DNA of 40,121 bases from Nanobdellota archaeon (GTDB lineage Archaea; Nanobdellota; Nanobdellia; SCGC-AAA011-G17; GW2011-AR17), in the NCBI GenBank assembly GCA_013329215.1, contig DUKS01000061.1, forward strand, positions 1 through 40,121, given 5' to 3'. Of this stretch, positions 3,369 through 39,377 are shown piece by piece. The notes under the pieces are model-generated. The model made no database searches, was not told the origin of the DNA, and saw only the letters and a list, made by a program, of their open reading frames with translations. Each line of letters begins with the position of its first letter. Positions within the stretch are counted from its first letter, which is position 1. The translations under genes and the position numbers were made by a program.

Positions 3369-5603
3369 TTAAGAATTGTAATTCTCTATAATCCTCTGCA
3401 CCCATGCCTTGCTCGGGGTGTTGAACACATCGCCCCCTGCTTCATAGGGATAACGCATAATGGAGTTGAAGCTTGGCCTTAAATTGTTTACATACCAGTT
3501 CCCACAGTCCCCGCCGCATCCCCGCCAGTTGTTTGAAACAGCTTCTGCAGCATTTTCATCGCTCCATCCATACGTGCTGGCAGCCGCTGATGCAGTAACG
3601 CAGTTTGGCGGCCCTGCATTGCATCCGCTCAATTCTTTTCCTTTGCTTTGGTTGTATTCATCATTTAGGCTGCCAAAGCTGTGCCCAAACTCATGGACAG
3701 TTATTGCTGTAAACCATTCTCCATCGTTGCTTCTTGAGATATATGCATTGCCTCCGAAATTGGCGAATGACCTGAATCCTAACCCTGAAAGCGTTATAAT
3801 CCTGTCCCCGGCCGGGCAGTTCATTCCCAATGAGTTAATATATCTTCCCGCGGGCACATTGCCGCCAAGCCAGTCGGAAAATTCCATAGGCACCATCGTC
3901 TCGCCGCTGTAAATTGCCCATATGTTGAACTTGCTCCTGCTGTTATTGAAAGGGTCCACAGTCAGAATGCCGATATGCGCCCCGTCTCCGTTTACTGCAT
4001 AGCCCACATCGCGCACAAAATCGCTTTCTTTCATATACCTGTCAGATATAAAAACAATGTCAACTGCGCTTGCAGAATCCCCACCGGCATTTACATCTGT
4101 AAGCTGCTGGCATCCCGCCTGCCTCACGCAAAGCTTCTGCATACATTCCCTTCCCTCGCCGCAGTCGCTGTTTTCCCTGCATCTTTCCAGGCTGCCGCTC
4201 ATTCTTCTGAACTCCCCTGAAACAAGAGTTCCGTCAAAATAGCATTCCCTTGTGTCAAGCATGCATTCAAACAGGCTGTAAAACTTTCCTCCTGCATCGT
4301 ATATCAGCGATTTAAACCCCGTCCCGAAATCATACCAGTTTGCGCCTTCCTGCATCGCCACGTCATCCCTGCTGAATATCATTGAGCCGCGGGCGCCTTC
4401 CTTTTTCACTGCAATCCTGCTTTCTACGTCGTTTGCCTCAAACTCCTTTATGTAAAGATTATTATAAGCTGAGGACGCAGGATAAGTGAGTGCAAGAGAG
4501 AATGGCTTTCCCCTTGTTCTTTCGTGTATTGTTTCGCCTTCTGGTGTTTGCACTGTTGTTGTTATCTTTGTTCTCCATGGCTTAAGCCTTATGAGCCCTT
4601 CTGATTTGCTGAAAAAAGAGCAAACGCCGCTGTCCAGCTTGAGGTCTTCTTCCTGCCCTACAGCGCATGCCTCATACAGCGAATTGTCGCTGAATGCCAT
4701 CATTGCGCCTTTGCTCAGGTCTATAATCCCCTCGCTCCCAACAGAGAGCTTTAATGAAGCGGGCTCTCTTTCATTCTCAACTGCCATGCCTATGTTAAGC
4801 CCCTCATCACCGAAGACATCCGCATTGTTTGCAAATACAACGTCCATGTATCCCTGGTAGCCGACGCCTTCTTCGGAATGGTTCAGCTGCCTGTGGTAAT
4901 ACCTCCTCAGCTTTATGTTTTCATCAGAATAAACCTCAATATCGCCAAACCCGCTCCTGCCTTTTGTGAACGCCTGCATTTCCAGATAGGTCACATTTGC
5001 CAGATAAATATTATTAAGGTTTGAAACCCTGTTAAGGAACCTTTCATTCAGCTCTCCTGTTTTGTATTGCTCATATCCCAAGTTAAATATTGCAAGTCCT
5101 TCACCTGTCATATTCAGGTAAGCTGAAGACGGCGTAAGGGAAGCGGAAATTCTGCATTCGTCTTCCTTGCACACAAAAAAGTAATAATGCTGGAAATATG
5201 CTGCTTTGCTTGCGTCGAATACCAGGTTTTCCCTGTTTTCGGCATTTATCGCAAACTGCCCGCCTGTGACATTAACCATTGCCTTGTTTTCTGGCGCAGA
5301 CATGAAGCTTCCGCTGTTTACAACAATATTCTTTGAGCCTTCCTGTGTTTCCACATCCCCATACAAATACCCTATATTCCATTCCCTTGCCCTTCTGCCT
5401 TCGCCTGTCGCTGCCTTTATGTGCAGAATCCCGTTTTCGCATGCGGGTGCAGCCCCCAATATTGCTTCAAGGTGCGCGGGATTATACAGGGTCATCCGCA
5501 TCCCATCGGAAGATGCGCACTCGCTTATGCCTGCTTCCTGTGCCGCAGCATAAGCCGTAAGTATTACAATAGCACATGCATAAATAAAAATCTTTAATTT
5601 CAT
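3369..5603 (-). CDS. Secreted M64-type zinc metalloprotease
   Basis: A 744-aa protein with a signal peptide (KIFIYACAIVILTAYAAAQ). The C-terminal domain has the M64 (IgA peptidase-like) zinc site VHEFGHSFGSLNDEY, with HEFGH at residues 637-641 followed by the DEY that marks this clan. Cys pairs follow it (CGGDCGNW). A small Cys knot around residues 480-500 (CRENSDCGEGRECMQKLC) links it to the N-terminal part, which has a beta-rich look and begins with a block (MTLYNPAHLEAILG) shared with the next gene and with the large gene at 24058. The predicted role is extracellular proteolysis; the substrate is unknown. It is tandem with, and paralogous to, the gene at 5643. A TATA-like element (about 5627-5636) suggests its own promoter. 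Confidence 0.85.
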   Translation of the reverse strand: MKLKIFIYACAIVILTAYAAAQEAGISECASSDGMRMTLYNPAHLEAILGAAPACENGILHIKAATGEGRRAREWNIGYLYGDVETQEGSKNIVVNSGSFMSAPENKAMVNVTGGQFAINAENRENLVFDASKAAYFQHYYFFVCKEDECRISASLTPSSAYLNMTGEGLAIFNLGYEQYKTGELNERFLNRVSNLNNIYLANVTYLEMQAFTKGRSGFGDIEVYSDENIKLRRYYHRQLNHSEEGVGYQGYMDVVFANNADVFGDEGLNIGMAVENEREPASLKLSVGSEGIIDLSKGAMMAFSDNSLYEACAVGQEEDLKLDSGVCSFFSKSEGLIRLKPWRTKITTTVQTPEGETIHERTRGKPFSLALTYPASSAYNNLYIKEFEANDVESRIAVKKEGARGSMIFSRDDVAMQEGANWYDFGTGFKSLIYDAGGKFYSLFECMLDTRECYFDGTLVSGEFRRMSGSLERCRENSDCGEGRECMQKLCVRQAGCQQLTDVNAGGDSASAVDIVFISDRYMKESDFVRDVGYAVNGDGAHIGILTVDPFNNSRSKFNIWAIYSGETMVPMEFSDWLGGNVPAGRYINSLGMNCPAGDRIITLSGLGFRSFANFGGNAYISRSNDGEWFTAITVHEFGHSFGSLNDEYNQSKGKELSGCNAGPPNCVTASAAASTYGWSDENAAEAVSNNWRGCGGDCGNWYVNNLRPSFNSIMRYPYEAGGDVFNTPSKAWVQRIIENYNS

Positions 5604-5642: not shown

Positions 5643-7928
5643 TCAACTGTAAGCGGCAAGCTTATCTTCAATCCATTTTTCTGATATGCTGTTAAATGTT
5701 TTACTGTCAATCTGGTTGCTCATTAAGGATAACTCGCTGGGTCTTATGAAACCAGTGCAGGCTGTGCAGTCTCCGCCGCAGTTCTCTCCAGCTTCTTCAG
5801 CCAGGATCCGCTCTGCTTCAGCGCGGTCGCCGAGAATATTTGTCCATGCCTGCAGTGCATCTTCCCTTGTGGGCAGGCAGTTTGGTGCGCCGAAATATTT
5901 TGTATGCGGGCCTTGGTGCCAATATTCGTCCCAGACTTTGGCGAAACCGTGCGCAAACTCATGTACAAGAAGCAGGCCTTTGCCCAGCCCTGCATAAGTT
6001 GGGCCGGATGTTATAACCACGCCTTCGGGCTCTGAGAACGACCTGAATTCCATTTTTGAAACAAAAACAGCTTTGTCTGCATCAGCGCATCTTTTCATAA
6101 GCGAATTTATGTACCTGACAACCATATCCGGGTTTGCACGCGGTTCAAGGGCCATCCTTTCTTCCGCCAGCACATACCAAAAGCGCATCTTTGGTTTTTG
6201 CTCTGCCTTGCTGAACGGGCTGACTGATAAAAGCCCGTCAAACCCGTTATCCCCCTCTTTGTCAATCAATAGCTTAACTCCTGGGCTGTTTTCATCACTG
6301 TTTTCCAGAAAATCCTCTTCATTTGCATATCCTTCGCCTATGAACAGGATATCCAGCTTGTTTCCGATTGCATTTTCCCCCGGGTATGCCTCCCTGCACT
6401 CTTTTTTAATAACACAGACGCTTTCTACGCACTTAAGCCCTTCCCCGCAGCTGTTGCTTGCCGAGCATTTCCTGAGGATTTTCGGGTGCTCACCCAAAAC
6501 CCTGCTCCTCTCGAGCATGCAGGACCTTGTATTTACATTGCATTCAAGCAGCTGGAATTTGCCTCCTTCATAAACATATGCATTAAAGCTCACACCGAAA
6601 TCAAACCAGTTGCCGAGCATTCCTTCAGGCATATAAACATCCCCCCTGTAAAAAAGAAGCTGCCTGTTTGGCAGGCCCTGCCTTTCAAGGGTTACTGAGC
6701 TTGGTATGCCAAAAGTGTCAAATTTTCCTATAGACACCAGCCTGAAACTGCCGTCAGCAGGAAGCATAATTTTCAATGTAAAAGGGTACTCTATGCCCTC
6801 TTCAACATAGGTCCTGGGCCTGAATTTCATAATGCCCCTTACAGGGTCCACAAACCCGCTTCCCCTTATTAAAAAGAAGTCCAAGATATCCTTCAGCCCC
6901 GGCGGGACTTCATCAAACCGTCCCATCTCCTGCTGTATATGGTCTTCTCCTGACCACTTATAGATATCGTTGCTTGGAACGAGCACCATCGAGCCGCGGG
7001 AAAGGCGAAGAAGCTCAAAGTTATTATAAACAACAGTTATCCCTTCTGCATTTTCCTCGATGTTTTTTGCAAATACCTCAACAACCGCGCCCCCAAGCGG
7101 CGTTGCCTGCGCTTCTTTTGCAATGACTGAATAATAATTGTCAACATACGGGCCGATGAACCGCCTTGCCTGCGGGTCTGAATCCACTTTCATATGCTTT
7201 AGCATAATCTTTTCGTCTGATTTTACTGCAACTCCTCCGAATATGCTGTCTGGCGCATATGCAGTTATAGTAAGATTTATTGAATCCTGCACAACGATAT
7301 TCTTAAGGTCTGTGAGATTGGTAATATATTTTTCTTCGATTTCTCTGCCCGCAATATAATTGCCCACTTTTGAAGAATCAACAGCAGCGCCTTTTCCTGT
7401 TATATTAAGGTATGAATAGGGCTTTTCTCCTGCAGGCAGCACTATTGCGCCTATGGCGCATCTTTCATTCTTTTGGCATATGAAATCATAGCCGTATTGC
7501 GTGTATATTGCATTCGTGAGCCTAAATCCCAGAAAAGGGAGATTCTCATTAGATGCATAAAACTCGGTTCCTGTGATATTTATCCCCAAGCCTGATGTTT
7601 CAGTTGCGGTGTAAGCCCCGCTTGTTACCTTAAGGCTTTTCCCGTCTTCGCCCAAAGCAATTATACCGGACAGGTAGCCAAGAACTGTGCTTGTTTCAGA
7701 ACCCGGAAGAGCATAGTTTAAGGCCAAAGTGCCATCCGACTCTTCGTAATCATCAAAAACCGCGCTTATCTGCCCCGGATTATATACAGTAACACCCCTG
7801 CTGCCCTCAATGCATTTGTAGCCTTCTGGCATGGCCTGGCCGGCGCACCCGCTTTCTTCCTGCGCAGCCGCTGCACTGCATAATATTATAATCGCAAAAC
7901 ATATTGCAAGAACAGTTTTTATGGCCAT
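5643..7928 (-). CDS. Secreted M64-type zinc metalloprotease (paralogue)
   Basis: A 761-aa protein with a signal peptide (VLAICFAIIILCSAAAAQ). The architecture is the same as in the downstream neighbour: N-terminal VTVYNPGQISAVF block, beta-rich middle, a W(F/Y)DFG segment near residue 430, a Cys knot (CSASNSCGEGLKCVESVCV), then a peptidase domain with VHEFAHGFAKVWDEY. HEFAH is at residues 656-660 and CGGDCTAC follows. Zinc ligands and catalytic Glu appear intact, so it should be active. Sequence divergence from its neighbour is large outside these blocks, so the duplication is old. A TATA box lies about 25 nt upstream of the ATG, suggesting a leaderless transcript separate from the operon upstream. 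Confidence 0.85.
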   Translation of the reverse strand: MAIKTVLAICFAIIILCSAAAAQEESGCAGQAMPEGYKCIEGSRGVTVYNPGQISAVFDDYEESDGTLALNYALPGSETSTVLGYLSGIIALGEDGKSLKVTSGAYTATETSGLGINITGTEFYASNENLPFLGFRLTNAIYTQYGYDFICQKNERCAIGAIVLPAGEKPYSYLNITGKGAAVDSSKVGNYIAGREIEEKYITNLTDLKNIVVQDSINLTITAYAPDSIFGGVAVKSDEKIMLKHMKVDSDPQARRFIGPYVDNYYSVIAKEAQATPLGGAVVEVFAKNIEENAEGITVVYNNFELLRLSRGSMVLVPSNDIYKWSGEDHIQQEMGRFDEVPPGLKDILDFFLIRGSGFVDPVRGIMKFRPRTYVEEGIEYPFTLKIMLPADGSFRLVSIGKFDTFGIPSSVTLERQGLPNRQLLFYRGDVYMPEGMLGNWFDFGVSFNAYVYEGGKFQLLECNVNTRSCMLERSRVLGEHPKILRKCSASNSCGEGLKCVESVCVIKKECREAYPGENAIGNKLDILFIGEGYANEEDFLENSDENSPGVKLLIDKEGDNGFDGLLSVSPFSKAEQKPKMRFWYVLAEERMALEPRANPDMVVRYINSLMKRCADADKAVFVSKMEFRSFSEPEGVVITSGPTYAGLGKGLLLVHEFAHGFAKVWDEYWHQGPHTKYFGAPNCLPTREDALQAWTNILGDRAEAERILAEEAGENCGGDCTACTGFIRPSELSLMSNQIDSKTFNSISEKWIEDKLAAYS

Positions 7929-8805: not shown

Positions 8806-11800
8806 TCATCTGCTGCACCCGGCATATGCTGCATCAAACACCGCCGTTCCGATAGCTTCCTGCCCTGCCCTGTTCGGGTGCAGCTTGTCCGGGTTTGCGT
8901 ATTCATCTTTCATTGCATCTGGGTTTGCAGGGTCTTCAAGCGCGCTGTATACGTCAGCCCTTATGTCAACATCCTTTGCGCCGTTTACAGTATCCATTAT
9001 CCAGCTGTTTACTGCATCGTTCCTGTTCTGCAGCGGCGGCGTCCATTCCCTATAGCCCTTATACGGCGTTATTGTCAGGGCTATCACTCTCATTCCCGCC
9101 TGCTTTGCCATTGTATACATATCCTGCAGGTCTGCCTCAACAGCGTTTGCATTGTTGCCGTTATTGATGCCTCCCATTATTATCACTTCATCGAAACGAT
9201 GGCTGATTATGTCAGCCTGGAACCTGCTTTTAATCCTTGACGTTGTTTCACCGTTGACGCCGTAATTGTAAAAATCAAACTCTGTATTGCACTGCCTGTT
9301 TAAGTAGCATGCATAGCTGTTTGTGCCGTTTGTTATTGAGTCGCCGATTACCCCGACTTTCTTTGCGCTCGTATATGTAACGCCGCTGCAGCTTGCGCAT
9401 CTTGTGTTTGAAGTGCACATGCTGGCCGGAGATTGTGCATCTGCGCCTGGAGTTGCGGCTGCCGGAGCGTCTGTCCTTTCCGCGCATGCCCCGTCTTTCC
9501 ATTCGCAGTATAATCCTGCCCTTGCTGTGCATGCAACTGCCTTGCACATTGCTTCATCATTATTGAAGTCGCTGCATCTTTCTGTGCTTGCGCATGTGTA
9601 GCAACTATCTACGAATGTCCTTACCTGATAGTCTGTTCCAGGCACGCCTGCCGCGCCTTCCTTGTAATAGCATGGGCCAATCCCGTGGCATTCTGCGCTG
9701 TCGCAGCTATTAAATAAGCCTCCCCATGTGCCGCTTCCGCCGCACCCACGGCATCCTGTTGCTTCGGCAGCTTCCGCGCTTTGTGTAGCTGCCTGCGATG
9801 CTGCCCCTTCAGTGTCCCTTGGCGGATATACCCATATTTCAGGCTGCCACTTCCTGCTTTGCTTGTTGTTGGAATCACGGAACACTCCCATTTCGCTCTC
9901 TCCAACTCCGCCGTACATGTCAATCTTGCATCTTTCGTGGAAGCCCCCGCCTGTATCTTCTGCATAATACCAGCCGTTAAGGGGATTCCCATCATTGAAC
10001 TTTATGTACAGCAGCGAGCCGTAGGGTATGAAGCATTGTGACCCGTCATTAGGGTTTACTGCAATTGTCCTGTGGACATCAGGTTTTACGCCTGTTTTTG
10101 TATAACCGTGCTCATTTGCCGGTGTTTTTGGGGTGCCGCCCTCTCCCTTTCGTATCCCTATACCCTCCGCAGAATAAATTAAATTCTCGCACGCGCCGCT
10201 GCCCTCGCATTTAATCTCTTCGTAATATCCCCTGTCTGCAAGGGGCATTTTGCAGGGGGTTTCCCACCAGCACGCTTTCTTTTCGCCTAGGGCTGTGCAT
10301 TTTGTTTTACAGTATTTGTTGCTGCCTACTACTTTGCATAAATCAGCCCCGGTGCAATCGGTGTTGCTTGTGCATTCTTTGGGGTTTGTTGCCAGTATTG
10401 TTTCTGCGTTGTTCCAAAGCCCTGTATACCATTTTGTGCCGTCTGCCCATCCCGGCTTGTCTTTGCAGTCTGCTGTATAATAAACAGTAGCCGCAACCGC
10501 GCCTTCTGCAAATGTTGAAACCCCTTCCGGGGTGTTGCTTGGCGTGTCCTTTAAAACAATCTGCTTCATAATCCGCGTTTTAATAACATTATCAGCTGTT
10601 CCCGGTATGCTGCCCGGGTCAAAGTCCACATAATACCCATAATTTACCACATTGCCTGTTGTCCTCGCGCCGGGATTATCATAACCAATGCTCATTCCGG
10701 TTACAGGAGTGACTTTCGTGCCTGATGAGCTTGTCGGGTTGGCAACTGCCTGTGTTGCTCCTGCGCCAGCACTCGGCCTCTGTTCCATGCTTGCCTGGCA
10801 TGTCCCGCTTCTCCATTCGCAGTTCAGGCCTGCTTTTGATGTGCACTGCTGTGATTGGCATTTGTCGGGGTCGTCATTATAATCAGAGCACTTTGCGGCT
10901 ATTGCGCATGCATGGCATTCGTTTGCCACGTCTTCACTGGACCATATACCCGAAAGGGCCCCTTCTGTGAAAAAGCATGAAGAGCTTAATGCGCCGCACT
11001 CTTCCCTGTCGCACTGGTTGGTCGTGCCGTCGCCGCACCTTTGGCATCTTAATTCAACAACCCTGGAATCAGTCGCATCTTCACTTGCCTGGCCCTCGAA
11101 CCCTTCTGCTTCAAACGGCACTTCAAGGTTGTAATATCTTAAATAAATTGGGTCAAGCACTGTGCCGTATTTTGCCTGCGCAGCAGGCGAGTCCATTCCC
11201 TTAAGCGCGGTCAGGTTTGTTTTTGCAATGGAATATGTTTTGTTTAACTCCGCCCTGAACTCCCTGAAGAAGTCAGGCAGTGTTGCAGGGGTTATTTCAC
11301 TGCCCCGGAATGTTGGTATAATCTCATCCTGCAGCCTGATTGAGAAGTCTGCATGCACGCCCTCAAGTTCATATTCAAGCTGCTCCTTCAGCATCCTGAT
11401 TTCCCGTCTCAGGTCATATTTAGCGCATTTTTCAGCTGATGTTTCCATTAGCGTGCTGTACATATATTGCGATTCGGCCGCAACAGCAGGTGTTATTGTC
11501 CTAAGCTCAAGTATATGGTAAAGAGCCATTGCTTCTGTGATCTGGCCGCATTCTGTTTTCTCAAGCGCGTTAATCCTGTTAAGGTCTGACATGCTTGCAT
11601 TGTAGTCAAGAAGGCCTGTTATGCCAAGCTCTTCTTTCTGCTCCCTGAATCCGGCTTCATCAAGCGCCCTTGACACTTCTTCCATTCTCTCAGTGTCCCT
11701 TATGCTCACTGTAGTCATGTCAATCCAGCACTTGCCCAGGCTTCTTCCTGAGGAATCCTTTCCGCACGTGCCCACTTCTTTCCAGTCCAGCGAGTTTGTT

Positions 11801-14800
11801 CCCTGGCCGGGGTTCTGCGCAGAGCATACTCTCTGTATGCCTGACGATAATATCCCGCCGCTGCTCGGCATGGGCAGGCTGCCCAGCGAGGGGCTTGTTG
11901 TAGGGGCTGACGGGACGCATTCTTCCTCTGAGTTTATCTGCCTCTGCGCTTCATCTGAGACAATCAAGTCATTAAGGTAATTCAGGCCGAAGGATGTGGT
12001 CACTTTTCCAAATCCGCACTCTGTATTCCCGTTCAGGGTTATGCAGACCTGGTCAAACCCTTTTGGCGCGATGCAGTCAATGTTGTATGATGCAATGCCT
12101 CCCTTGTCTATGTGGCCCTGCCTGCCCTCGCACCTTTCTGTCACATATCTCGGGCTTTCGCCTGTGACTGAGTTTTTCAGGAACACCGAATATGTTGCTT
12201 CATTGTCTTCGCCTGCATATATATGGTAAAACACTTCATACCTTGATGTGCCCGTTGTTTCTGAGAATGATGTTTCTGTAAGCAATGCAGTGTACTGCGG
12301 CGGGCTTTCAGGCTGCGCAAGCTGGTCAAAGAATTCGCCGAGCGCAGGCACTTTCCCGAATATAGCCTGCTTGCACACTGTCGTCCCTATCTCTTCCATC
12401 GACCTGGACTGGTATGACGCAAACGCAGTCTGCGCATACTGGGTTGTGAAGAATGAAACAGAGTCTGCCACGTTCTGCAGGCTTGACTCAAAAGTCATGT
12501 ATTCTCCGCCTCCTTCCTGCTGGCCGAAGAATGTCTGTGAAATCCAGTTGAATATTCCTCCCCTGATATTGAATATTGCTATTGCCTCTTTCCAGAGCAG
12601 TTCGCATATAAATACAGACCTGATTTTATCGCAGATGCCAACCGACTGGCCGCTTATCTGGGCTGTCTTCAGGCATTCCACATACCCGCGCAGCACTGAT
12701 TTAATGTTCTGCAGCCCTGCAAGCACGCCTGTAAGGCATATCGGCACCGGCTCATACGGTATGTCAAAGTTCGGAAGACCAAGCACCATTGAGCCGATAA
12801 GGCCTGTCTGCACAACATCGTTAACCTGCCATGTCCCGCCAAGGTTGAACCTTGACGCAGGGCACATCACCGGGTCGCAAACGCCAAACAGCAGCCTGCA
12901 GTCGTCCGGGTCCATTGTGTCGTAGCAGTTTGGCTGGCTTCTTGAGTTGTCTGACTGCGCCCTTGAAGTGCTTACTGCAAACTGCCTGCCGGATGCGCTT
13001 ATCATCTGCCCTTCTGAGCGCGTCCCTACCCTGCTTGCTGTTTCAATCAGGCTCCTCTGTATGGATTCTGAGTCAGACCGTTCAAGCATGCTCTGGTGCC
13101 TCACAAGCACGTCATCCGCAGTGCACAGCAGGCCGTCAGTCCCGACATTCCATTCCTGTATTACGCTCGGGCTTCCGTCCATGTAGAAGTCAAGCACTTT
13201 AACATAATTGCCGTTTGTTGTCGGTATGCAGTAAGGCTTTCCGTCCGGATAGAATTCAGCTGTTGCTGATTGCGCATAATTATCATTTGTCTGGCCTGTT
13301 GCGTATGCAGCTGTCATCGCGACAAAGAAGTTGTTGCTTCCGTCCACAAACACCTGTCCCTGGTTTGTGCTTAGCGGCGCCGCGGGATTTTCCTGGTAAA
13401 CAACCCTTACTCTTTCCAGCTCAGCCGCAATTTCCTTTTGCCTTTCTGCATCATTGCTTGCAGCCGCGGTTGCATTTTCCAATGTTAAGCGCGCCACATA
13501 ATTCTCAACAGTTGCTTCGGCCAGCCCGACCCTCCCGATAGGGGTGTTTGAGTAAAACTCATTGTTTTCTCTCCTGACTGTTGCAAGCGGCACCAGGCCT
13601 ATTGATTCTATCAATGGGAAGTCATTTGAGTTTGTATCCGGATTCGCGAGGCTTGATTGATAAAGGTCAGAGAATACCTGCCTCTTTTCGTCTTCAGGCA
13701 GCTTGTCGAAGTCCGGGTAAGTTGCCTGTATTGCGCCTACAGCCTCGTTGTAAGCAGTTGTCCTGCCGCTGTTTTCAAGGTTGAATGAACCCAGGTTTCT
13801 GTCAACTTCGCGCCTTAAGTCATAGCCTGTTTCATCGCTTCCCCCGTTTAGCTGCGTGTATGCACTTGACTGCCTCATAAGCTGCCAATACCTATAGTCC
13901 CTGAGCTGCTGCTCGTCGAACAGGTCTTCGCCTATATAATCCCCGTATTTGCTTATGTTGCTGTAGTTTGATGCAAGCTGCCTGTACCATGCCTGGCCCC
14001 TGTAATTTTCCATGTCGTCATTTGCTTTTTCCACTGCTTTCTGCGAAGCGTCTATAGTGGTGTCAATGGATGCGGAGTTTTCTGCTATGCATTTATCATA
14101 ACTGCCATACTGCCTGTCATCCCCGCTGTTAGCCCTGCAGTATGCGTCCCATCCGCTTCTGCCGTCAATGCCGTGCATTGCAAACTGCCTTGCCTGCGTC
14201 CTTGACAGCCCCATGAAAAACGAGTTCTTTATTGTAAGGAAAAGGAATGTGCCGAGGCACACTTTTTTCCAGACAGTCACGACATCTGTAAGCTCGTTTA
14301 TTACATCATCAAGGTCCTTGATTATTTCCTGCGTGTCATTTATCTGGCTTCCTATTTCGTCAGGCGTAAGGCTTATCAGCCTTTTTTCTATCGGGATATG
14401 GACTGTGAAGTTTGTTTCGCTTACGAGGGGCGCGCCCGTGCCGGGTATAATTGTCACGATTGCGTATTTTTTCAGGTCCACTGATTTCAGCATTACTGTG
14501 TGCCCGTCCAGGGTGATGCTTTCCCTTATTGAAAGCACTCTTGTTGTCCTGTATGCCTCCGGAGGTGTTGCCCTGTATGTTTTTTCTATTACGACTGAAT
14601 CAGCGCTCATGCTTTTGACATTCCAGTTGTAGTTTCTTGCAACGCCGTCAGGCCCTGTTTCCACAAAGTCGTTTGCGAATATGCTTTTTCCTGCCGGTAT
14701 GCTTTTTGTCCCTTCCTGCTCGACCTGCAGTGTGGCTGTCGGCCTGCTTGCCTGGTCCTGCCACAGGATGTTCATCAGCTTAACCCTTACTGCTGCGCCG

Positions 14801-17800
14801 TTCTCCTCAAACTCGCCTATTGTGAACCTTGCGTGGTCCAGCGCATCAGCCTCAAGCTCGTCTATCCTCGCCCTTGCTTCAGGTATGAAGCTGCCCTTGT
14901 TATTTCTTATCGATTTCTTGTAGTATTCAAGCGCTTTCTCAGAATCTCCGAGCCAATAATATATATTGCCCAGCTTGAAATAGGCCTTGTCTTCGTACAA
15001 AATGCCCTGGCTGTCTTCTATGCCGAAATACTGCTGCGCAAGCCTTTCGTACTCTTTTGCGGCTGTACAGTATACCATTTCCTGCGTTGCGCTCTTTATT
15101 GTTGCAAGCCACTGCTCCGGGCTGTCTGATTCCCTGAGTATTATTTCCTTGCCTTCGCATATGCTGCTGGCTGTCCTTATTTCTGTGCAGCTTGTCCTGC
15201 AGGCCCCGCCTGCCTGTGAACATGTCTTTTGCGCTGGGGCAGCGGCCTGTTGTGCAGGTACAGCCTGTGTTACTTCGGCAGCTGCTGCCACAGGCTCAGG
15301 CTCTTTTGGCTTGCAGCAGAATGTAGGCACGAATCCGCCCAGTGCGGTTACATCCATCGGCACACATTGCGCGGACTGCTGGAGCATGTATGTTTCGCCT
15401 GCGCCTGTATTGCAGGCTGTTTTGCACTGCCATGCATCATCCGGCCCGCACTTGTTTTGTTCCTGCAGCTTCAGCGTTGACACCATCCTGTCTCTCAATC
15501 CTTCAGGGTAGCAGAACTTGTTTCCGTTATATGCCCCCCCGCTTGCGCTGCCGCATTCAAACGCCCCCTGCCTTGATGTTTGGGTGATTGAAACCTGTGC
15601 ACCAGCTGCCGGGGTTATGCAGCACTGCTGTGATGCTCCGCACTCAGTGGCAGGCAGCAGCGCATCTGTACCGCATTCAGCTGCGCAATTTCCTTCAAAT
15701 CCGTATGCTGTGCAGCTTTCCTTTTGGCAGCACTTGTTTCCTGCGCCACACTCTGAGTCATAGCGTGTTAGCGCACTATATCCTGCGCCGCAACTCCCTG
15801 CCTTGCAGGACCCCATATCCTCAGGCCCGCAGTTTCCAGGCGGCGTGCAGCACTTCTTGCCCGGCCCGCACACCACATTATTTTCAGCAACCTCTGTGTA
15901 TCCGCCTGGGCAGCTGCCTTCAACGCACACATTGCCTCCATGAGCGCTTGAGCCGCAGGTTTCTGCCGGCTCGCAGCACGAGAACCTGGATTCTCCGGAG
16001 CTGCTTGTTATAGTGCATTCGCTTTCGTGCTCGAAATCAGGGATAGGGAAAGTATATGAGCATACTGACCTGCATATGCCTTTGCCTGAATCGCATGTTT
16101 TTTCCCTTGCGCAGCATTTTCTGTTTCCGCACTCAATGTTGAAAAGCGGAAGCTCAATCTCTTCGGGGCCGCAGCTGTCCCTGCAGTCATAAGTGTTTCC
16201 TGCGCATTTTTCAGGCCTGCAGCACTTTGACAGCAGACCGCATTCGCTGTCATACCTGCCCTGGCTGCTGTATGAGGGAGCAGTGCATGATGTAAGGCAG
16301 CTGTATGCATCATTCGGCCCGCAGGTCTTTGTTTTGCAGCATATGTTCTTGCTGTTTAATTCGCTGCACACATCATTATTTGCAGAAACTGCTTCTTTTG
16401 AGGCGTCGTCACAGCTTGCAGAACACATTGCCCCGCTTCCTGCATCGCAAATAATGCTTTGGGCAGTCCCCTTGCAGCATTTCCACCATGAAGCTGGATT
16501 TGAGAGGCATTTTCCGGCAGTGAATGATATTTCTGTCCTGCCCAACCCTGACACTGACATGCAGGCATTTACCCTCGTATCGGCGCATGTGCCGCCCATG
16601 GCTGCGCACGGCGTGTCATCCCGCGGCGCTGCTGTAACCAGGGCTTCGGTGCTTACTGCGCTTTCTCTTTCCTGTGCAGCTGCTACTTCCCCGTCTGTTT
16701 CAAGCAGCGCTGTTTTTCCGCAGCATGATTTTCCTCCATCGCATGTGCCTTCAAGCGCAGGATAGTTTACTTCATATTGGAATGCGCCCGTTGTCGCTTC
16801 CGCGGTTCCGGCCTGCCTTTCATCCTGCGTAGCTCCCCTTATCGCGCCAGCGGCGGAATCGCTTACAAGCCCGACTGCCGATGCGATTGTTTCGCCTGCC
16901 CTTTCAATGAAGCTCTTTGAAACTTTTGTCTGGTCCCTTGGCCCCCTTATGACCAGCTCATATGTGATTTTTTTGCCCTGCCTTATTGTGTTTATTTCCT
17001 GGACAACAAGCTCAGAACCAGGGTAAAGCTTTGAGCCTTCTGTGACAACATACTCCCTTTCCTCTCCATTAACATTAACCCTTATCCTTGCCCTGTGCTG
17101 TGACGGCTCTATTATGTCGCTGAGCTTGACACGGAATGCATTTGTCATCAGGTCTGTTGCAGTGCTGAGCCTGATGGGATCTGAAGTTTCGCCTTTCGCC
17201 AGCTCAATGTCTTCAAGGGGCCTTGGAGTTCCTGTAAAAGGCCACTGCAGGTCCTGCCCTCCGTATACGGTAAGCTTTGCACTGTCTTCTGTGATTTCGC
17301 TTGCCCTGACCGCGCCCCTGCCTGAGAAGAATTTGTACTCATCAAGCGGCTTGCTTCGCCATGCAGACTCATCGCGGTCCTCCGGGATGACAAGGTCCTG
17401 CTCTATCATGCTGTAAAGCCTGTCTGCATTTTCAAAAGTTATCTCGGCTTTCATGTTCAGGTTAATCTCATCAGGCACATCCGCTTCCTTCTCAATCTGC
17501 TTCAGCGTGATGATAAGATAGCCAAGGTTGTCCATTGAATACTCTCTTGGCTCGACAACATTGGGGTTGCCCCTGACATAGCTCATTGTCTCTTCGTCAA
17601 GCGGCCTTGTGTAGAACCGCTTTATCTTAACCCCTGTGCCGTACAGCGGCTCTGCAGTTGAACTGCTTCCGATAATGCTTCCCGGGCTTGTGCCTGTAAG
17701 GAAAACATAGACAGGCACGTCGCCGTCTTCTATTACGCCTGCAGGCAGAATGGCAGGCTCGTATCCCTTTACATTAACAAGTATTGATTCTCCTGTGGCC

Positions 17801-17922
17801 TCTTCCTTTGCTTCCTGCTCCCAGTCAAAGATTGCCGCGGAAAACGGCGTTGTTATTATAATCATTGAAAGAACCAGCCCAATCACCGCGTTCCATTTCA
17901 TGATTCTCTTCTTGCTTGCCAT
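8806..17922 (-). CDS. Giant (3038-aa) secreted multidomain protein with Cys-rich repeats, 3D-type domain and C-terminal SGNH hydrolase
   Basis: A signal peptide (VIGLVLSMIIITTPFSAA) opens a 3038-aa exported protein. By eye: beta-rich N-terminus to about residue 370; about ten Cys-rich units ending in CC, residues 390-880 (for example CGPEDMGSCKAGSCG...KCC); a TPR-like pair near 975-1030 (YFKLGNIYYWLGDSEKALEYYKKSI); helical regions with some hydrophobic stretches near 1220 and 1700-1760; a Cys-rich module near 2290-2380, repeated near 2725-2810; between the copies a 3D-type domain with YYAEDTGGGFHERCKIDMYGG (AED at 2654-2656); and a C-terminal SGNH/GDSL esterase with GDSIT (2860-2864), GGINN and DKLH (Asp3012, His3015). 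It follows the KRGQ protein gene by 10 nt. A cell-surface role, perhaps in contact with other cells, is inferred. Confidence 0.85.
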   Translation of the reverse strand: MASKKRIMKWNAVIGLVLSMIIITTPFSAAIFDWEQEAKEEATGESILVNVKGYEPAILPAGVIEDGDVPVYVFLTGTSPGSIIGSSSTAEPLYGTGVKIKRFYTRPLDEETMSYVRGNPNVVEPREYSMDNLGYLIITLKQIEKEADVPDEINLNMKAEITFENADRLYSMIEQDLVIPEDRDESAWRSKPLDEYKFFSGRGAVRASEITEDSAKLTVYGGQDLQWPFTGTPRPLEDIELAKGETSDPIRLSTATDLMTNAFRVKLSDIIEPSQHRARIRVNVNGEEREYVVTEGSKLYPGSELVVQEINTIRQGKKITYELVIRGPRDQTKVSKSFIERAGETIASAVGLVSDSAAGAIRGATQDERQAGTAEATTGAFQYEVNYPALEGTCDGGKSCCGKTALLETDGEVAAAQERESAVSTEALVTAAPRDDTPCAAMGGTCADTRVNACMSVSGLGRTEISFTAGKCLSNPASWWKCCKGTAQSIICDAGSGAMCSASCDDASKEAVSANNDVCSELNSKNICCKTKTCGPNDAYSCLTSCTAPSYSSQGRYDSECGLLSKCCRPEKCAGNTYDCRDSCGPEEIELPLFNIECGNRKCCAREKTCDSGKGICRSVCSYTFPIPDFEHESECTITSSSGESRFSCCEPAETCGSSAHGGNVCVEGSCPGGYTEVAENNVVCGPGKKCCTPPGNCGPEDMGSCKAGSCGAGYSALTRYDSECGAGNKCCQKESCTAYGFEGNCAAECGTDALLPATECGASQQCCITPAAGAQVSITQTSRQGAFECGSASGGAYNGNKFCYPEGLRDRMVSTLKLQEQNKCGPDDAWQCKTACNTGAGETYMLQQSAQCVPMDVTALGGFVPTFCCKPKEPEPVAAAAEVTQAVPAQQAAAPAQKTCSQAGGACRTSCTEIRTASSICEGKEIILRESDSPEQWLATIKSATQEMVYCTAAKEYERLAQQYFGIEDSQGILYEDKAYFKLGNIYYWLGDSEKALEYYKKSIRNNKGSFIPEARARIDELEADALDHARFTIGEFEENGAAVRVKLMNILWQDQASRPTATLQVEQEGTKSIPAGKSIFANDFVETGPDGVARNYNWNVKSMSADSVVIEKTYRATPPEAYRTTRVLSIRESITLDGHTVMLKSVDLKKYAIVTIIPGTGAPLVSETNFTVHIPIEKRLISLTPDEIGSQINDTQEIIKDLDDVINELTDVVTVWKKVCLGTFLFLTIKNSFFMGLSRTQARQFAMHGIDGRSGWDAYCRANSGDDRQYGSYDKCIAENSASIDTTIDASQKAVEKANDDMENYRGQAWYRQLASNYSNISKYGDYIGEDLFDEQQLRDYRYWQLMRQSSAYTQLNGGSDETGYDLRREVDRNLGSFNLENSGRTTAYNEAVGAIQATYPDFDKLPEDEKRQVFSDLYQSSLANPDTNSNDFPLIESIGLVPLATVRRENNEFYSNTPIGRVGLAEATVENYVARLTLENATAAASNDAERQKEIAAELERVRVVYQENPAAPLSTNQGQVFVDGSNNFFVAMTAAYATGQTNDNYAQSATAEFYPDGKPYCIPTTNGNYVKVLDFYMDGSPSVIQEWNVGTDGLLCTADDVLVRHQSMLERSDSESIQRSLIETASRVGTRSEGQMISASGRQFAVSTSRAQSDNSRSQPNCYDTMDPDDCRLLFGVCDPVMCPASRFNLGGTWQVNDVVQTGLIGSMVLGLPNFDIPYEPVPICLTGVLAGLQNIKSVLRGYVECLKTAQISGQSVGICDKIRSVFICELLWKEAIAIFNIRGGIFNWISQTFFGQQEGGGEYMTFESSLQNVADSVSFFTTQYAQTAFASYQSRSMEEIGTTVCKQAIFGKVPALGEFFDQLAQPESPPQYTALLTETSFSETTGTSRYEVFYHIYAGEDNEATYSVFLKNSVTGESPRYVTERCEGRQGHIDKGGIASYNIDCIAPKGFDQVCITLNGNTECGFGKVTTSFGLNYLNDLIVSDEAQRQINSEEECVPSAPTTSPSLGSLPMPSSGGILSSGIQRVCSAQNPGQGTNSLDWKEVGTCGKDSSGRSLGKCWIDMTTVSIRDTERMEEVSRALDEAGFREQKEELGITGLLDYNASMSDLNRINALEKTECGQITEAMALYHILELRTITPAVAAESQYMYSTLMETSAEKCAKYDLRREIRMLKEQLEYELEGVHADFSIRLQDEIIPTFRGSEITPATLPDFFREFRAELNKTYSIAKTNLTALKGMDSPAAQAKYGTVLDPIYLRYYNLEVPFEAEGFEGQASEDATDSRVVELRCQRCGDGTTNQCDREECGALSSSCFFTEGALSGIWSSEDVANECHACAIAAKCSDYNDDPDKCQSQQCTSKAGLNCEWRSGTCQASMEQRPSAGAGATQAVANPTSSSGTKVTPVTGMSIGYDNPGARTTGNVVNYGYYVDFDPGSIPGTADNVIKTRIMKQIVLKDTPSNTPEGVSTFAEGAVAATVYYTADCKDKPGWADGTKWYTGLWNNAETILATNPKECTSNTDCTGADLCKVVGSNKYCKTKCTALGEKKACWWETPCKMPLADRGYYEEIKCEGSGACENLIYSAEGIGIRKGEGGTPKTPANEHGYTKTGVKPDVHRTIAVNPNDGSQCFIPYGSLLYIKFNDGNPLNGWYYAEDTGGGFHERCKIDMYGGVGESEMGVFRDSNNKQSRKWQPEIWVYPPRDTEGAASQAATQSAEAAEATGCRGCGGSGTWGGLFNSCDSAECHGIGPCYYKEGAAGVPGTDYQVRTFVDSCYTCASTERCSDFNNDEAMCKAVACTARAGLYCEWKDGACAERTDAPAAATPGADAQSPASMCTSNTRCASCSGVTYTSAKKVGVIGDSITNGTNSYACYLNRQCNTEFDFYNYGVNGETTSRIKSRFQADIISHRFDEVIIMGGINNGNNANAVEADLQDMYTMAKQAGMRVIALTITPYKGYREWTPPLQNRNDAVNSWIMDTVNGAKDVDIRADVYSALEDPANPDAMKDEYANPDKLHPNRAGQEAIGTAVFDAAYAGCSR

Positions 17923-17932
17923 ATTTTCTCTT

Positions 17933-19909
17933 TTACTCTATTACCGGCTGCAATGCCTTTGACGGGTCCTGCAGCGAATCATACGCCTCTTCCATATCTT
18001 CAACAGTCCCGGGCACGTCGCCCGCCGGAACGTAAAATATCACCTTGCTGCCTTCATCAAGCGCCTTCCTTGTTACCTGCCATACTGTTGAAGAGCCGCC
18101 GCTGACAACCTGGTTAAGTGCCATGTCCGGCGTTGATGCGGTTGTGCACCGCTCTTCTTCAAACCCGAGCAGCCCGAGTATGTTCCTTGTCGGCGCCTTA
18201 ATGCAGTGTGTTATTTCCTTGCCTTTTATATTTATCTCAAATCCCTGCGTTATGAGGGTTGTGCTTAAGTCGTGGCTGCCTGCGATAAGCCTTATTTTGC
18301 CTTTTGGCTCAACAAGCGAAGTGCCAAAACCCAGCCCCTCGTTTTCTATATTTATGATAACTGTTTCTGAAGATTCCACGCCCCTTTCAAATCCCTTGTC
18401 CATGACTTTTATCTCGTAATCCATTTCCTTGTACGGCTCAAGCTTTACTGAATAGCTGTCCGGCTGTATTGTGCTGGCTGTTTCCCTGCCGTCATGGAAA
18501 CCTTCTTTGCTTGCAGTCAGCAGTGCATTTGCACACGGCGGAATATCCGCCTCAAGCACCGCCTCGCCTGTGCGCCTGTCTGCCTTTGTTCTGCCCAGAT
18601 TGCACACTGTGCTTACGCATTTCAGGCTTATTTCTGCGTCTGCAACAGGGTTGAGATTGCCGTTTGCATCGGGGCTTAGCGCATATATTTTTGCATGCGC
18701 CGCCTTGTTGCCGCATATCTTGTTCTCGGGCTCCGGAATGTCCAGCGTCCCTTCCCTGTTTTCCCTTGGCTGGTTGTTGTCTATAACTACCATTGTTGCA
18801 AACTGAAACAGGTGCCCGTTTGTGTCTGTCAGCGCCACAAGCAGCGGATACTGGATATCGTATATGAAATTATAATCGTTAATACAGAAAATAGACGTGA
18901 GGAATGCCATTGCGCTGTTCCCCATGCCAGCAAGAGGCTCTGCTGTGAGTATCTCCCCCTCCGAAGGGTAAACCTCCATTTTCACAGGCCATTCCTGCGA
19001 GAATTTGAATCCTGAGCTTATGCTTCCATGCCTGTCTTCAAGCGCATCCCATGCAAAGTATTTGCTGCCTGTGCTGAATGCAGTGCCGCCCAGCTTTATG
19101 AACTGCATGTTTGAGTTAAGCGCTTTCTTAAGCTCGCCCATCACTTTTGATTTTGTCCACACTTTTGGCGCGCATGTAATCTCTGTCCCCGAAAATGGTA
19201 TCCCCTTGTAAACAGCGAGTATGTCTATTGTCTTTTCCTCAAGATAAAAATCATTGCTGTCCCTGCTTATTATTTCTTTTCCTATATTGTACATTTCGCC
19301 TATTCTTGCGTCGACTTTTGCATAGAACTTGGGCAGTCTGTAATTGAAATCCTGTATCTCTATTTTGACAGGGTAGTCCACTGTAAACTGGACCTCTGCG
19401 TCTTTTATGTTGACAGTTGACTTTATCCTTCCCTGTGTCAGGTTGTATTTCTCAAACAGCGTGAAATTCTGCGTGCATTCCCCGAGCCTGCTGTTTACAT
19501 ACTCGGCAAGCGAGGCTTCCATTTCCTTTATAGTGGGTATGCTTGTTTTCTGTATACCGTTCGGCTCTGCATAGAACCAGTATGCAGTCTTCATGCCGCT
19601 GCCCGGTATTATCTCAAGCGTTTTTCCAAACGGGTGCGCAGGTGTCGGCGGTATTTCTGTTGCAGGAATATCGATGTATCCGCCCTGCATCCCGAGCAGG
19701 GTTACGCCGTTATCCGCTATTGACTGCACGCAGGACTGGCCGAAACTGTAGACTTCCATAGCCTTTTCAGGCACAGCCATCGCGAGCAGCCTTTCCTGCT
19801 CCCACTGGTCCGCTGCGGCCCTTGCCCTGAAGAAAATTATCAAAACCGCAAGCGCAACAACAATTATTCCAAAGACTACATAAACTGCAACCTGCCCTCT
19901 TTTTTGCAT
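17933..19909 (-). CDS. KRGQ-type pilin-like membrane-anchored protein
   Basis: A 658-aa protein starting MQKRGQVAVYVVFGIIVVALAVLIIFF. The short basic K-R-G leader, then Gln and an uninterrupted hydrophobic helix, looks like an archaeal class III (type IV prepilin) signal cut after Gly by an EppA/FlaK/PibD-type peptidase; an uncleaved N-terminal anchor is the alternative. The exterior part is mixed alpha/beta. Residues about 400-500 look like a carboxypeptidase-regulatory-like beta sandwich (VADAEISLKCVSTVC...GRTKADRRTGEAVLEADIPP). It heads the operon that encodes the giant protein, with a TATA box 25 nt upstream of its ATG. A second KRGQ protein at 30196 also precedes a large Cys-rich surface gene. 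The function is probably surface assembly; that is inference. Confidence 0.72.
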   Translation of the reverse strand: MQKRGQVAVYVVFGIIVVALAVLIIFFRARAAADQWEQERLLAMAVPEKAMEVYSFGQSCVQSIADNGVTLLGMQGGYIDIPATEIPPTPAHPFGKTLEIIPGSGMKTAYWFYAEPNGIQKTSIPTIKEMEASLAEYVNSRLGECTQNFTLFEKYNLTQGRIKSTVNIKDAEVQFTVDYPVKIEIQDFNYRLPKFYAKVDARIGEMYNIGKEIISRDSNDFYLEEKTIDILAVYKGIPFSGTEITCAPKVWTKSKVMGELKKALNSNMQFIKLGGTAFSTGSKYFAWDALEDRHGSISSGFKFSQEWPVKMEVYPSEGEILTAEPLAGMGNSAMAFLTSIFCINDYNFIYDIQYPLLVALTDTNGHLFQFATMVVIDNNQPRENREGTLDIPEPENKICGNKAAHAKIYALSPDANGNLNPVADAEISLKCVSTVCNLGRTKADRRTGEAVLEADIPPCANALLTASKEGFHDGRETASTIQPDSYSVKLEPYKEMDYEIKVMDKGFERGVESSETVIINIENEGLGFGTSLVEPKGKIRLIAGSHDLSTTLITQGFEINIKGKEITHCIKAPTRNILGLLGFEEERCTTASTPDMALNQVVSGGSSTVWQVTRKALDEGSKVIFYVPAGDVPGTVEDMEEAYDSLQDPSKALQPVIE

Positions 19910-24057: not shown

Positions 24058-27000
24058 TCATCTGGGCGCACAGCAAATAGTTCCCCTATTATATTTATAA
24101 CTCGGCCCGCTTATTGTGGCAGGATAGGTGATTTCATATAGTGTTCCGCACGATTCTATATTTATTTCCGGGCTGGCTATATATTCGGTATTAGTACCCC
24201 AGAAATCTCCCCAAGTTGAGAAGTCACAATCATCTCCTGCCTTGCAAGTTCCGCCCAATATTTCACAAGCATTCTGGCCTTCCTGTTCTTTCGGAATGCA
24301 GCAGCGCCTTGTTTCAATAGGCTGCCCTGCTATCGGCGTCAAAAAGCATGCATCATTTGCAGCCCCTGATGTTGATCTTTCTTCACTGTCAAAATAGCAT
24401 CTATCCCTGCATCTTCCGCCTGCCGCTGCGCATGCATTGTCTTGTGCGGTTTTTGCGCCCTGCGCTCTTTGTTCCTGTAATACGCACACTCTCTCTCTTA
24501 AGTCGCATTGCTCTGCTGCGCCGCAGTCTTCATCAGTATCGCACTTTTGGCCAAGGGTATCTTCGCTCCCTTCTCCAATAATACCCTTTGCGCCAGCCGC
24601 CCTGGAAACACAGCAGTCTTCATCTGAACGGCATCCTGATGCAAAAACCGAGGTTCTTGATTCCCCACATTGGCCCAATGTTCTGCATTGCCCTCCGAGC
24701 TCCCTGCATGTTTCCTCATTCCTTCTGGCTGCTCCCGCAGGGATGCAAATTCCATATCTCGCTCCAGCACCCTTTTCGCAAGCATATCTGCTGCTGCCGC
24801 AATCATCATCAGTTTCGCATGTGTCTCCAACTCCTTTTGCGCCTTCATCTCCTGCGCCAACTACCTCTTCAAATTCTTCACCTGAAAGCTGCCGTGGCGT
24901 GCTTGAGGTATACGCATGGCATGAGCCGCCAACAGCCCTCTTTTGGAAATAGCATGAGCCGAGTTCATTGCATTCATCTTCATCGCAGATATTGAAAATT
25001 CCTGCGCCGCATCTTCCGCACTGCGCCCGTGTCTCTTCTGCACTCTTTGCGCCTTCATCAAAAGGTGGCAGCTCGGCAGGCAAGGACCTGACGCATAATC
25101 TTTCAATGCACCTTCTTCCTGTTATGCAGTCAGCATCTGTATCACACCCGGGGAAGCAGACGCCTTCTTTGCATACAAGCGACGGGGGGCAGTCCAAATT
25201 ATCAACGCACTTCTTAAAGCACCTTCCACCGGAGCATTTTTCTATCGGCCCGCATTCAGAATCAATTTCGCACTCAGCAAAAGGGGGGATTTCAGAAGCG
25301 GCCTTTAATCCCATTGTCATCGAAATACAGCATATTTCTGGTCTCCCGCAGCCGGTGCCTGCATTATTTGATGATTCACTTATTCCGCAGCTCATTTTGC
25401 AGCGCCCCCCTGCTTCCTGGCATGTTAACGTTTGTTGGCTTCTCCTGTCAGGGGCTGAGCTATACCTACATATGCCGTACCTGTCTGCTGTGCCCGGCCG
25501 TTTATAACACATATAATCTTCGTTGCCGCAGTCTGCATCACTTTCACATCTATCTCCTGTACCTTTTGCGCCCTCTTCAGCAGTTCTTGCCGGCGCACTG
25601 CGCCTTGCATTATCTATCCCCTTTTCCAGCTTCTCCTGCGTAAGCCCGCTCGGAGTTAATCCGACAACCATTGTGTCTCCAAGCCAGCAGATTCCGTCAG
25701 TTGTGCAGCTGAGCATTTCTGATTCATCCGCTGCCGCAGGGTTCAGGTTAATATTGAAATTAAACCCTAAGTCTTTTATTGATTTTCCCTGGGTCCACGT
25801 AAGCTCATCATTTGCATACAGAATCCATGCGCCGTTGGCAGGGTTAGTGACTTTCACAGAGCCCTGCATCAAGCCATTTTCAAGCATGGGAGTGATTGTC
25901 ACGGTTTCATAGCCGGGCAGGAGCCTTATATCCATATTATCATCAAAATTACGTATTTTTATTTCCTTGTTGCCGGATTTCAACATTATGGAACTTAAGA
26001 TAGTCAACTCATAAGCCCTTTCTGCTGTTTCAGGGTATATACTTATTTCATTAAACACGTCAGCGAGCTTACTTTGTGATACGAATATTGAAGCCTTTGC
26101 ATCCCTTGCCAATACCCAAAAGATGGCACCTTCTTTCAGTCTTTCAGGGCTTGCAATAACCTTCACATCTTCTCCGTCGCTTGAGATAGCAACAGAACCA
26201 ACATTTGCAATCAGTTCATTATTTGGCCTATACCCTTCTATAAAGTCAAGTATTGTTACTTCTTTGTCTGATTTAACTTTTATAGAATCAACCGCGCTTG
26301 TCTCTGCCTGCGCCTTTGCCTGCAAATTTAAAGTGTCGGTATTTCTTACTGTCCTCTTTGTAACTTTAACCTCCTCTAAATCCATAAGTGGTATTGCAAC
26401 AAACTCATCTTCAGGCATAAGCCTTGCCTTTTCCTTTAACTCTTTAATATTATTTGGATGCTCTGTAACGTACACCTTTACCATATCATATGCCTCGGCA
26501 AAAACCGATTCGCCAACAAATCCCTGACCTGTGATTGTGAGATATCTTTCAGAATCTCCTTCCTTGTACAGCTGCCCTGACATTGCACAGCTTGTTGACA
26601 TGCCTCTTTCATCTTTTTGAAGGCATCCGAAGAACACACTCTCTGCCAGATAAGCGCCGTCCTTTGACAGCCTGAACATTGGCTTTATTTTTTGCTGTGC
26701 ATCTTTCACAAACTGAAGGGTGATTGCTTTTCCTATCAATCCAACATGGCGCCTGCCTTCTGGCGCTTCAAGCGGTATAAGCCAGCCGTCAGTAATATCA
26801 ATTTTGTTGGTTGCGCTGTTTGCAGCTACAGTGCCATATATCTCTGCAAAGTCTATAAAAGCGCCTTCGTTTGCAAGCGGCCGGTATGACAATCTTATTT
26901 TTCCATCTTCCAGGCATTTGGCAAGCTCTGTGTCTTCGCTTACTATGGAAGAATCGCTCAGCCCGCGCATTATTGCATTAAGCTTTTCAGGATTATATTT

Positions 27001-27126: not shown

Positions 27127-27161
27127 ATGGTGTTCACCTGCCATAGATGTAATTACATTAC

Positions 27162-30169: not shown

Positions 30170-30195
30170 TTTGAACGGAGCGAAGCGAAGTGAAA

Positions 30196-30702
30196 ATGCA
30201 GAAAAGAGGGCAGGTTACAATATTCGTTATTCTCGGGATTATACTTGTTGCGGCGATTATAGTCGGAATTGTTTTGAGGAAGGATATTGTGAGCGCAGTG
30301 AGCAGGTCTGAAACAACCACAGCTGCGTCATTCCAGGAGCAGGCAGAGGAAGTTAAGGCGCATGTGGAAGAGTGCCTGACTGATGCGCTAAAGGAAGCTG
30401 TTTTCCATTCTATTATAGGCTCTTCTACCAGTCTGACGCAGGAAATGTATTATGAGCAGGTTAGTCTTTTCATTAAAGACCAGCTCAATGCATGTATTGA
30501 TTTTACACTGTTCCCGAATTTATATATTACAAGGGGCGGGCAGACAGAGGTAAGGGTCTATGGAGATTCAAAAGAACCTCCTACAAAAATACAGGCTGAT
30601 TTGAAAATGAGGGTTGACATAACACGCGGCGAGGACCATGCTTCATTTGATGAACTAACGGGCACAATACCTTTAAAATCAAGGGCGGAGTTGGCACAAT
30701 GA
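30196..30702 (+). CDS. KRGQ-type pilin-like membrane-anchored protein (short)
   Basis: The track starts at a GTG (30190); the ATG at 30196 gives MQKRGQVTIFVILGIILVAAIIVGIVL, matching the N-terminus of the 658-aa protein, and leaves 168 aa. The K-R-G leader followed by Gln and a hydrophobic helix fits a type IV prepilin-like signal, or an uncleaved anchor. The exterior part (EVKAHVEECLTDALKEAVFHSIIGS..., YEQVSLFIKDQLNACIDF) also resembles the start of the 658-aa protein, where a Cys and a helix follow at a similar distance. Its stop codon overlaps the ATG of the 1481-aa gene (ATGA), so the two are coupled, in the same order as KRGQ protein plus giant protein at 8806-19909. Confidence 0.72.
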   Translation: MQKRGQVTIFVILGIILVAAIIVGIVLRKDIVSAVSRSETTTAASFQEQAEEVKAHVEECLTDALKEAVFHSIIGSSTSLTQEMYYEQVSLFIKDQLNACIDFTLFPNLYITRGGQTEVRVYGDSKEPPTKIQADLKMRVDITRGEDHASFDELTGTIPLKSRAELAQ

Positions 30703-39340: not shown

Positions 39341-39377
39341 TAAAAATAAAAAAAAGAAAAAAAGGCTTAAAGCCTTT
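39341..39377 (-). terminator. Hairpin plus T-tract terminator of the S-layer gene
   Basis: On the minus strand the perfect inverted repeat AAAGGCTTTAAGCCTTT overlaps the S-layer stop codon and runs into TTTTCTTTTTTTTATTTTTA. It combines hairpin and oligo-T features, which fits a very highly expressed gene. Confidence 0.65.

Follow-up and report, generated by a model that had tools for sequence, protein, structure and literature searches.

The DNA analysed here, the window, is 40,121 bases long and comprises an entire contig (C16) of an archaeal genome of 1.416 Mb, which is assembled in 67 contigs and 95% complete. Nearly a quarter of it is occupied by one gene on the minus strand, whose frame runs from an ATG start through 3038 uninterrupted codons, with stops throughout the plus strand over the same interval (Table 1). 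A full-length homologue of 3217 aa (L001), 57% identical over the best segment, is encoded in an independently assembled genome (G003) of the same genus, and a profile of the conserved core finds counterparts in 110 of 236 related genomes (52 of 114 among those of high quality); the compared genomes were placed in genus, family and order by kinship. Because a full-length homologue exists in an independent assembly and the core recurs so widely, the gene is neither a chimera, a chance frame nor an assembly error, and the single 9.1-kb gene described by the first-pass annotation is real.

Table 1. Features of the giant protein and of its flanking genes in the window (aa, residues of the 3038-aa protein).
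Feature	Position	Strand	Basis or remark
Giant exported protein, 3038 aa (P0001)	8806..17922	-	open frame; full-length homologue L001; core in related genomes
Signal peptide, aa 1-30	17833..17922	-	hydrophobic N-terminus, kept in nearly all homologues
Conserved N-terminal domain, aa 31-340	16903..17832	-	aligns in most homologues
Variable slot 1, aa 341-915	15178..16902	-	Cys-rich repeats in the window protein
TPR, aa 979-1008	14899..14988	-	PF00515, E 5e-7
Conserved Cys-rich core, aa 1046-2110	11593..14787	-	profile and alignment; without Pfam or PDB relative
3D / MltA-like lytic-transglycosylase-type domain, aa ~2470-2700	9823..10515	-	PF06725 and residue equivalences
SGNH hydrolase domain, aa 2852-3027	8842..9369	-	PF13472, residues, model
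Partner gene, 658 aa, type IV prepilin (class III) signal MQKRGQVAVYVVFGIIVVALAVLI	17933..19909	-	upstream neighbour of the giant
Downstream multi-TM protein, 273 aa	7964..8785	-	homologue downstream in 34 of 82 loci

How is this protein built? The signal peptide at its N-terminus supports the proposal of a giant exported protein, and the Cys-rich region that had been described is indeed present. Of the 'TPR-like helices', one clear TPR was found, and the plural overstated the case. The N-terminal domain that follows the signal peptide had no match in a Pfam scan and belongs to no known family. Beyond the core lies a variable tail, slot 2, which in the window protein holds a 3D domain and then the SGNH hydrolase domain. 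Pfam scans matched none of the known peptidoglycan-binding domains LysM, PG_binding_1 and SH3 in this protein, and no C-terminal TM anchor was found.

The SGNH domain matches PF13472 over residues 2858-3023 and the full profile (positions 1-178 of 178; E 2e-19; 71 bits against a cut-off of 32.9), and S2862 (GDSIT), G2891, N2920 (GGINN), D3012 and H3015 (the last two in DKLH) align with solved SGNH hydrolases (9kr0, 3p94). The intact SGNH/GDSL motifs reported beforehand are thereby borne out, all blocks being in register with solved structures. An AlphaFold model of the domain, built from two sequences, reached pLDDT 58 and pTM 0.64, and a Foldseek comparison with the PDB matched it at probability 1.0 to TesA, EstA and CEX, the last a mannan acetylesterase (TM 0.5-0.64). 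Structure prediction had been proposed as a check on the active site, and in this model the alpha/beta/alpha SGNH fold appears to assemble, with moderate confidence. A further question was whether homologues keep the triad. Ser, Gly, Asn and His are present in all four SGNH-bearing giants, but the Asp of DxxH is kept only in the window protein and L001, being Q in L037 and G in L038. SGNH hydrolases act on many substrates, and the profile match does not set carbohydrate acetyl esterases apart from others; we take the domain of the window protein to be probably an O-acetyl esterase, with peptidoglycan as its putative substrate. As for every domain of the giant, enzyme activity is here predicted from sequence. 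A scan of the viral_contigs set found no relatives of the SGNH domain.

Ahead of the SGNH domain we find a second enzyme domain, of the 3D (MltA/YuiC) type, which the first-pass annotation had missed. Its match to PF06725 scored 23.5 bits with the whole protein, 25.7 with the tail alone and 29.3 in a search of the genome, against a cut-off of 23.8, and in that genome search it was the sole 3D match. Two aspartates, D2656 (AEDTGG) and D2668 (IDMYGG), are conserved in all three 3D copies. In MltA and YuiC, D297 and D308, the catalytic residue, are equivalent to D151 and D162, and a third aspartate, D261, to D129 (PMC4499186); by way of these equivalences, D2656 corresponds to D297/D151 and D2668 to the catalytic D308/D162. 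HMMER likewise aligns AEDTGG..IDMYGG with ALDVGG..FDIYQG of MltA, at a low score. The position of the third aspartate is occupied by N2623 in the window protein, by T in L001 and by N in L037; since this residue is lost, the domain is filed as 3D-like and not as a full member. An AlphaFold model of the C-terminal 599 aa, again from two sequences, reached a pLDDT of 35, too low for a double-psi beta-barrel to be read from it, and was discarded. The best PDB match of the 3D profile, cerebellin (E 2e-4), was rejected as the sum of three repeats of ~7 bits each.

O-acetylation at C-6 of MurNAc controls lytic transglycosylases, which need the C-6 hydroxyl to form 1,6-anhydro-MurNAc, and Ape1, a known de-O-acetylase, is an SGNH O-acetyl-peptidoglycan esterase (PMC6174289, PMC6627197). 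The pairing of a 3D with an SGNH domain in one tail is therefore chemically sensible.

For comparison, we assembled 82 giants, that is, the window protein and 81 fetched relatives, of which 75 are complete; the fetched complete proteins have a median length of 2169 aa. The core almost always occurs in one gene per genome, within open frames of roughly 1500-3000 aa. Its alignment (39 sequences) contains many invariant cysteines, which fit an exported disulfide-rich protein. Neither the 39-member profile nor its members retrieved a credible relative of the core from the PDB or Pfam, and matches at E 0.03-1 (PcsB, HA2) were rejected as coiled-coil matches.

While the core is shared, the modules around it are not. 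Each of the 62 placed modules falls within slot 1 or slot 2, and the core is free of them. In direct Pfam searches the tails (slot 2) carry SLT (14), M23 (5), Amidase_3 (4), GDSL (4) and 3D (3), together with Amidase_2, NLPC_P60, DPBB_1 (RlpA-type), VanY and others; slot 1 carries SLT (9), calcineurin phosphoesterase (3), M23, Glucosaminidase and Lysozyme_like. For SLT, our own HMMs raise the count from the 23 direct Pfam matches to 28, and we regard the Pfam number as the conservative figure. With family HMMs seeded inside the set, at least one peptidoglycan-hydrolase-type module was recognised in 45 of the 82 giants, three of which are counted solely for a lysozyme-like domain that no library names. 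Peptidoglycan-hydrolase-type modules were found in 38 of 46 giants with tails of at least 400 aa versus 6 of 29 with shorter ones. About ten peptidoglycan-active families are thus fused to one orthologous scaffold. The remaining 37 giants are without a recognised hydrolase and, given this number, the scaffold may have another, basic role.

Exchange extends to close relatives. Within the genus of the window, three genomes combine 3D with SGNH, and L036 has a lysozyme-like tail instead; in L038, from the same family, SLT and Amidase_2 precede the SGNH domain. The window protein, L001, L037 and L038 are the only four of the 82 giants with an SGNH domain. Slot 1 holds a calcineurin-type phosphoesterase in L001 (aa 423-650), L036 and L037, all of the same genus, and Cys-rich repeats in the window protein, and we rejected the idea that this slot always houses a hydrolase, given that this genus has either repeats or a phosphoesterase there. 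One module is common to L041 (aa 2003-2184), L093 (aa 599-776) and L036 (aa 2279-2346) and occurs in both slots; it had no Pfam, PHROGs or PDB match where tested, and we presume it to be lysozyme-like from its resemblance to bacterial lysozyme-family proteins. Separately, the exported archaeal giant L066 has ankyrin repeats in its tail, beside an NlpC-like module.

Which cell wall would such modules act upon? A search for Mur_ligase_M, which detected it in 12 of 14 control genomes, found none in 94 of 99 relatives, the genome of the window among them; for most of these archaea the modules therefore cannot serve an own murein. SLT domains in general are present in 94 of the 236 genomes. The set of modules across orthologues points to bacterial peptidoglycan, and we take it to suggest that these archaea act on bacteria. 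It is highly doubtful that the giant belongs to the cell's own surface, as a factor in the structure or the biogenesis of the archaeal envelope or pilus, with tail enzymes that open a path for the cell's own appendages. A core that is nearly universal in the order and single-copy, a pilin-like partner (see below) and the many giants lacking a hydrolase would all suit such a factor. However, without Mur ligase these cells have no own murein to cut, and modules swapped even within a genus, as between the 3D-SGNH tails and that of L036, would be unusual for housekeeping.

To our knowledge, only a minority of Woese- and Pacearchaeota-type DPANN archaea have a host assigned to them. The first-pass annotation had suspected that the giant mediates contact with host cells, and had singled out the SGNH domain as an effector de-acylating the lipids or glycans of a host. 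A role in contact with other cells is supported as probable. The SGNH domain as the defining effector on an archaeal host did not hold up: it is one rare module, with a 3D domain next to it and peptidoglycan-type modules in the orthologues. We accordingly consider it quite unlikely that the giant is an adhesin whose SGNH domain de-acylates the lipids or surface glycans of an archaeal host. Such a function could draw on the intact SGNH motifs and on the solved SGNH relatives, which include carbohydrate acetyl esterases as well as the thioesterase TesA. Cultivated DPANN archaea are, moreover, all described as ectosymbionts of archaea (PMC11291902). Yet SGNH domains occur in so few giants, this one adjoins a 3D domain, and the modules surrounding it and in its orthologues are peptidoglycan-active, for which murein-free archaeal surfaces offer no substrate.

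How might the enzymes be presented to their target? The gene directly upstream of the giant encodes a protein whose N-terminus, K/R-R-G-Q followed by a long hydrophobic stretch, has the form of an archaeal class III (type IV prepilin) signal. The strict prepilin pattern is present in 67 of 75 long copies of this partner, the Gln is more than 90% conserved, and there is a single hydrophobic segment. L071 and L085 break off on the upstream side of the giant; each of the other 80 loci has a partner homologue upstream. In 79 of these it occupies position -1 on the same strand (once split over -1 and -2) and in one position -3, and in 45 of the 79 it overlaps the start of the giant by ATGA. In 20 further loci, mostly from genomes in which the core is weak or undetected, a partner homologue directly precedes a large ORF. 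Prepilin peptidase was found in 88 of 99 genomes and the platform protein T2SSF in 89 of 99, the latter weakly in the genome of the window itself (E 1.4e-4). N-termini of the KxGQ type are borne by many surface proteins in these archaea, and with 650 aa the partner would be an exceptionally long pilin. A filament role of partner and giant would be read from the type of signal peptide and from gene order.

The coupling to this partner also bears on whether the giant might be released as a free enzyme, either scavenging debris or killing competing bacteria in the manner of a bacteriocin, with no display on a filament. A Sec signal and the lack of a C-terminal anchor would fit release, and bacteria-killing peptidoglycan hydrolases have been described from archaea (PMC12352652). 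We nevertheless judge free release to be unlikely, as it would need neither an invariant association with a membrane-anchored, prepilin-type partner nor a large conserved core.

Several further genes around the giant are recorded here in their own right. In the more distant loci L125, L129, L133 and L134, two copies of the prepilin-type gene lie close to each other, often with a multi-TM protein of ~260 aa between them. The window itself contains a second, similar pair (30190-35144, plus strand), in which a 170-aa protein with a prepilin signal, MQKRGQVTIFVILGIILV, weakly homologous to the 658-aa partner (E 1.4e-4), overlaps by ATGA with a gene of 1481 aa; the secreted product of the latter is Cys-rich, contains MopE-type metal-binding repeats and has a TM at its C-terminus. 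Directly downstream of the giant's operon, two tandem genes (3369-5603 and 5643-7928, minus strand) encode homologous secreted proteins of ~750 aa, the first with the zinc motif VHEFGHSFG of the M64 (IgA peptidase) family and the second with LLVHEFAHGFA. The N-terminal part of a secreted Cys-rich protein of 1028 aa (24058-27144, minus strand) resembles both putative metallopeptidases by eye, and its tail is without the zinc motif. At the contig end, an ORF of 232 aa (39376-40074, minus strand) matches an S-layer outer domain (PF05124).

On balance, we favour the reading that the giant is an exported scaffold with a pilin-like partner, fitted with interchangeable cell-wall hydrolases directed against bacteria, in the window a 3D domain of the lytic-transglycosylase type and an SGNH esterase. 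In such a system, the first gene would provide a protein of ~650 aa with a type IV prepilin-type signal anchor, and the second, translationally coupled to it in many genomes, a Sec-exported disulfide-rich scaffold with two exchangeable enzyme slots. The scaffold would be exposed at the cell surface, where a type IV-like filament, or the tip of one, may carry it; the partner would anchor or display the giant much as minor pilins may do with PilY1. Contact with a bacterium would bring the enzymes to the wall, where the SGNH domain could strip the O-acetyl groups that stand in the way of lytic transglycosylases. Cleavage of the glycan strand by the 3D domain could open the wall, allowing the archaeon to attach, feed or kill. 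The biological purpose could be predation, episymbiosis or competition. We put forward more tentatively, as a possibility that is itself rather doubtful, that this is a contact apparatus common to the order, comprising a type IV-like filament or anchor, formed by the partner, and a giant tip protein whose tool heads are swapped to suit the chemistry of the targeted wall, those of the window being a lytic transglycosylase and a de-O-acetylating esterase, and that the archaea are predators or episymbionts of bacteria. If the favoured reading is true, a near-universal, single-copy giant bearing bacterial-wall hydrolases in cells without Mur ligase would mark bacteria as their partners or prey, the module in a slot may predict the wall type of the partner, and the conserved prepilin-type gene beside that of the giant hints at a mode of display for the enzyme.

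The basic kind of protein is not without precedent. Castelle et al. (2021, PMC8204110) described fam00969, a family of giant murein-like lytic transglycosylase proteins of Woesearchaeota and Pacearchaeota, and proposed action on bacterial cell walls. Like the giants studied here, these proteins are extracellular, reach up to 3,000 aa, come from the same kind of host lineage (two related DPANN groups) and in many members contain a lytic transglycosylase domain. Judged by this description, our family is very probably fam00969, and its basic kind is therefore already known. In contrast to the one domain named there, SLT is here one of about ten modules placed in two slots around a core, the lineage of the window uses 3D and SGNH, and a pilin-like partner always adjoins. 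Tip complexes of PilY1 and minor pilins are comparable in that a large secreted protein with conserved and variable regions is encoded together with prepilin-type proteins (PMC7541494, PMC13190605), a position beside a prepilin-type gene that the giant shares wherever the upstream region is available (80 of 80 loci). However, Pfam scans detected no PilY1/PilC family in core members, the core profile found no related PDB chain, and the core has no sequence relation to any PDB chain or Pfam family; furthermore, the variable parts of the giant are cell-wall hydrolases, and one large partner takes the place of several small minor pilins.

Bacterial-type peptidoglycan-cutting domains in secreted archaeal enzymes have been reported by Strock et al. 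(2025, PMC12352652), whose modular hydrolases, prominent in Nanoarchaeota, require a wall-binding domain; the window protein is several times larger and has no known domain of that kind. SPEARE proteins of Nanohaloarchaeota (PMC6642349) are likewise giant DPANN surface proteins with enzyme domains and a proposed function in cell contact. They differ in their serine protease, LamG/adhesion and restriction-enzyme domains and in a C-terminal membrane anchor, none of which we find in the window protein. Bd3285, the MltA-like 3D enzyme that Bdellovibrio secretes into its prey (PMC10127604), offers a parallel for a 3D-domain lytic transglycosylase delivered to the wall of another bacterium, but it is a single small bacterial enzyme with neither a giant scaffold nor an SGNH domain. 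Relative to these systems, the prepilin-type partner, the swapping of about ten families between two slots and the tail combining 3D with SGNH appear to be new, being unreported in the searchable literature.
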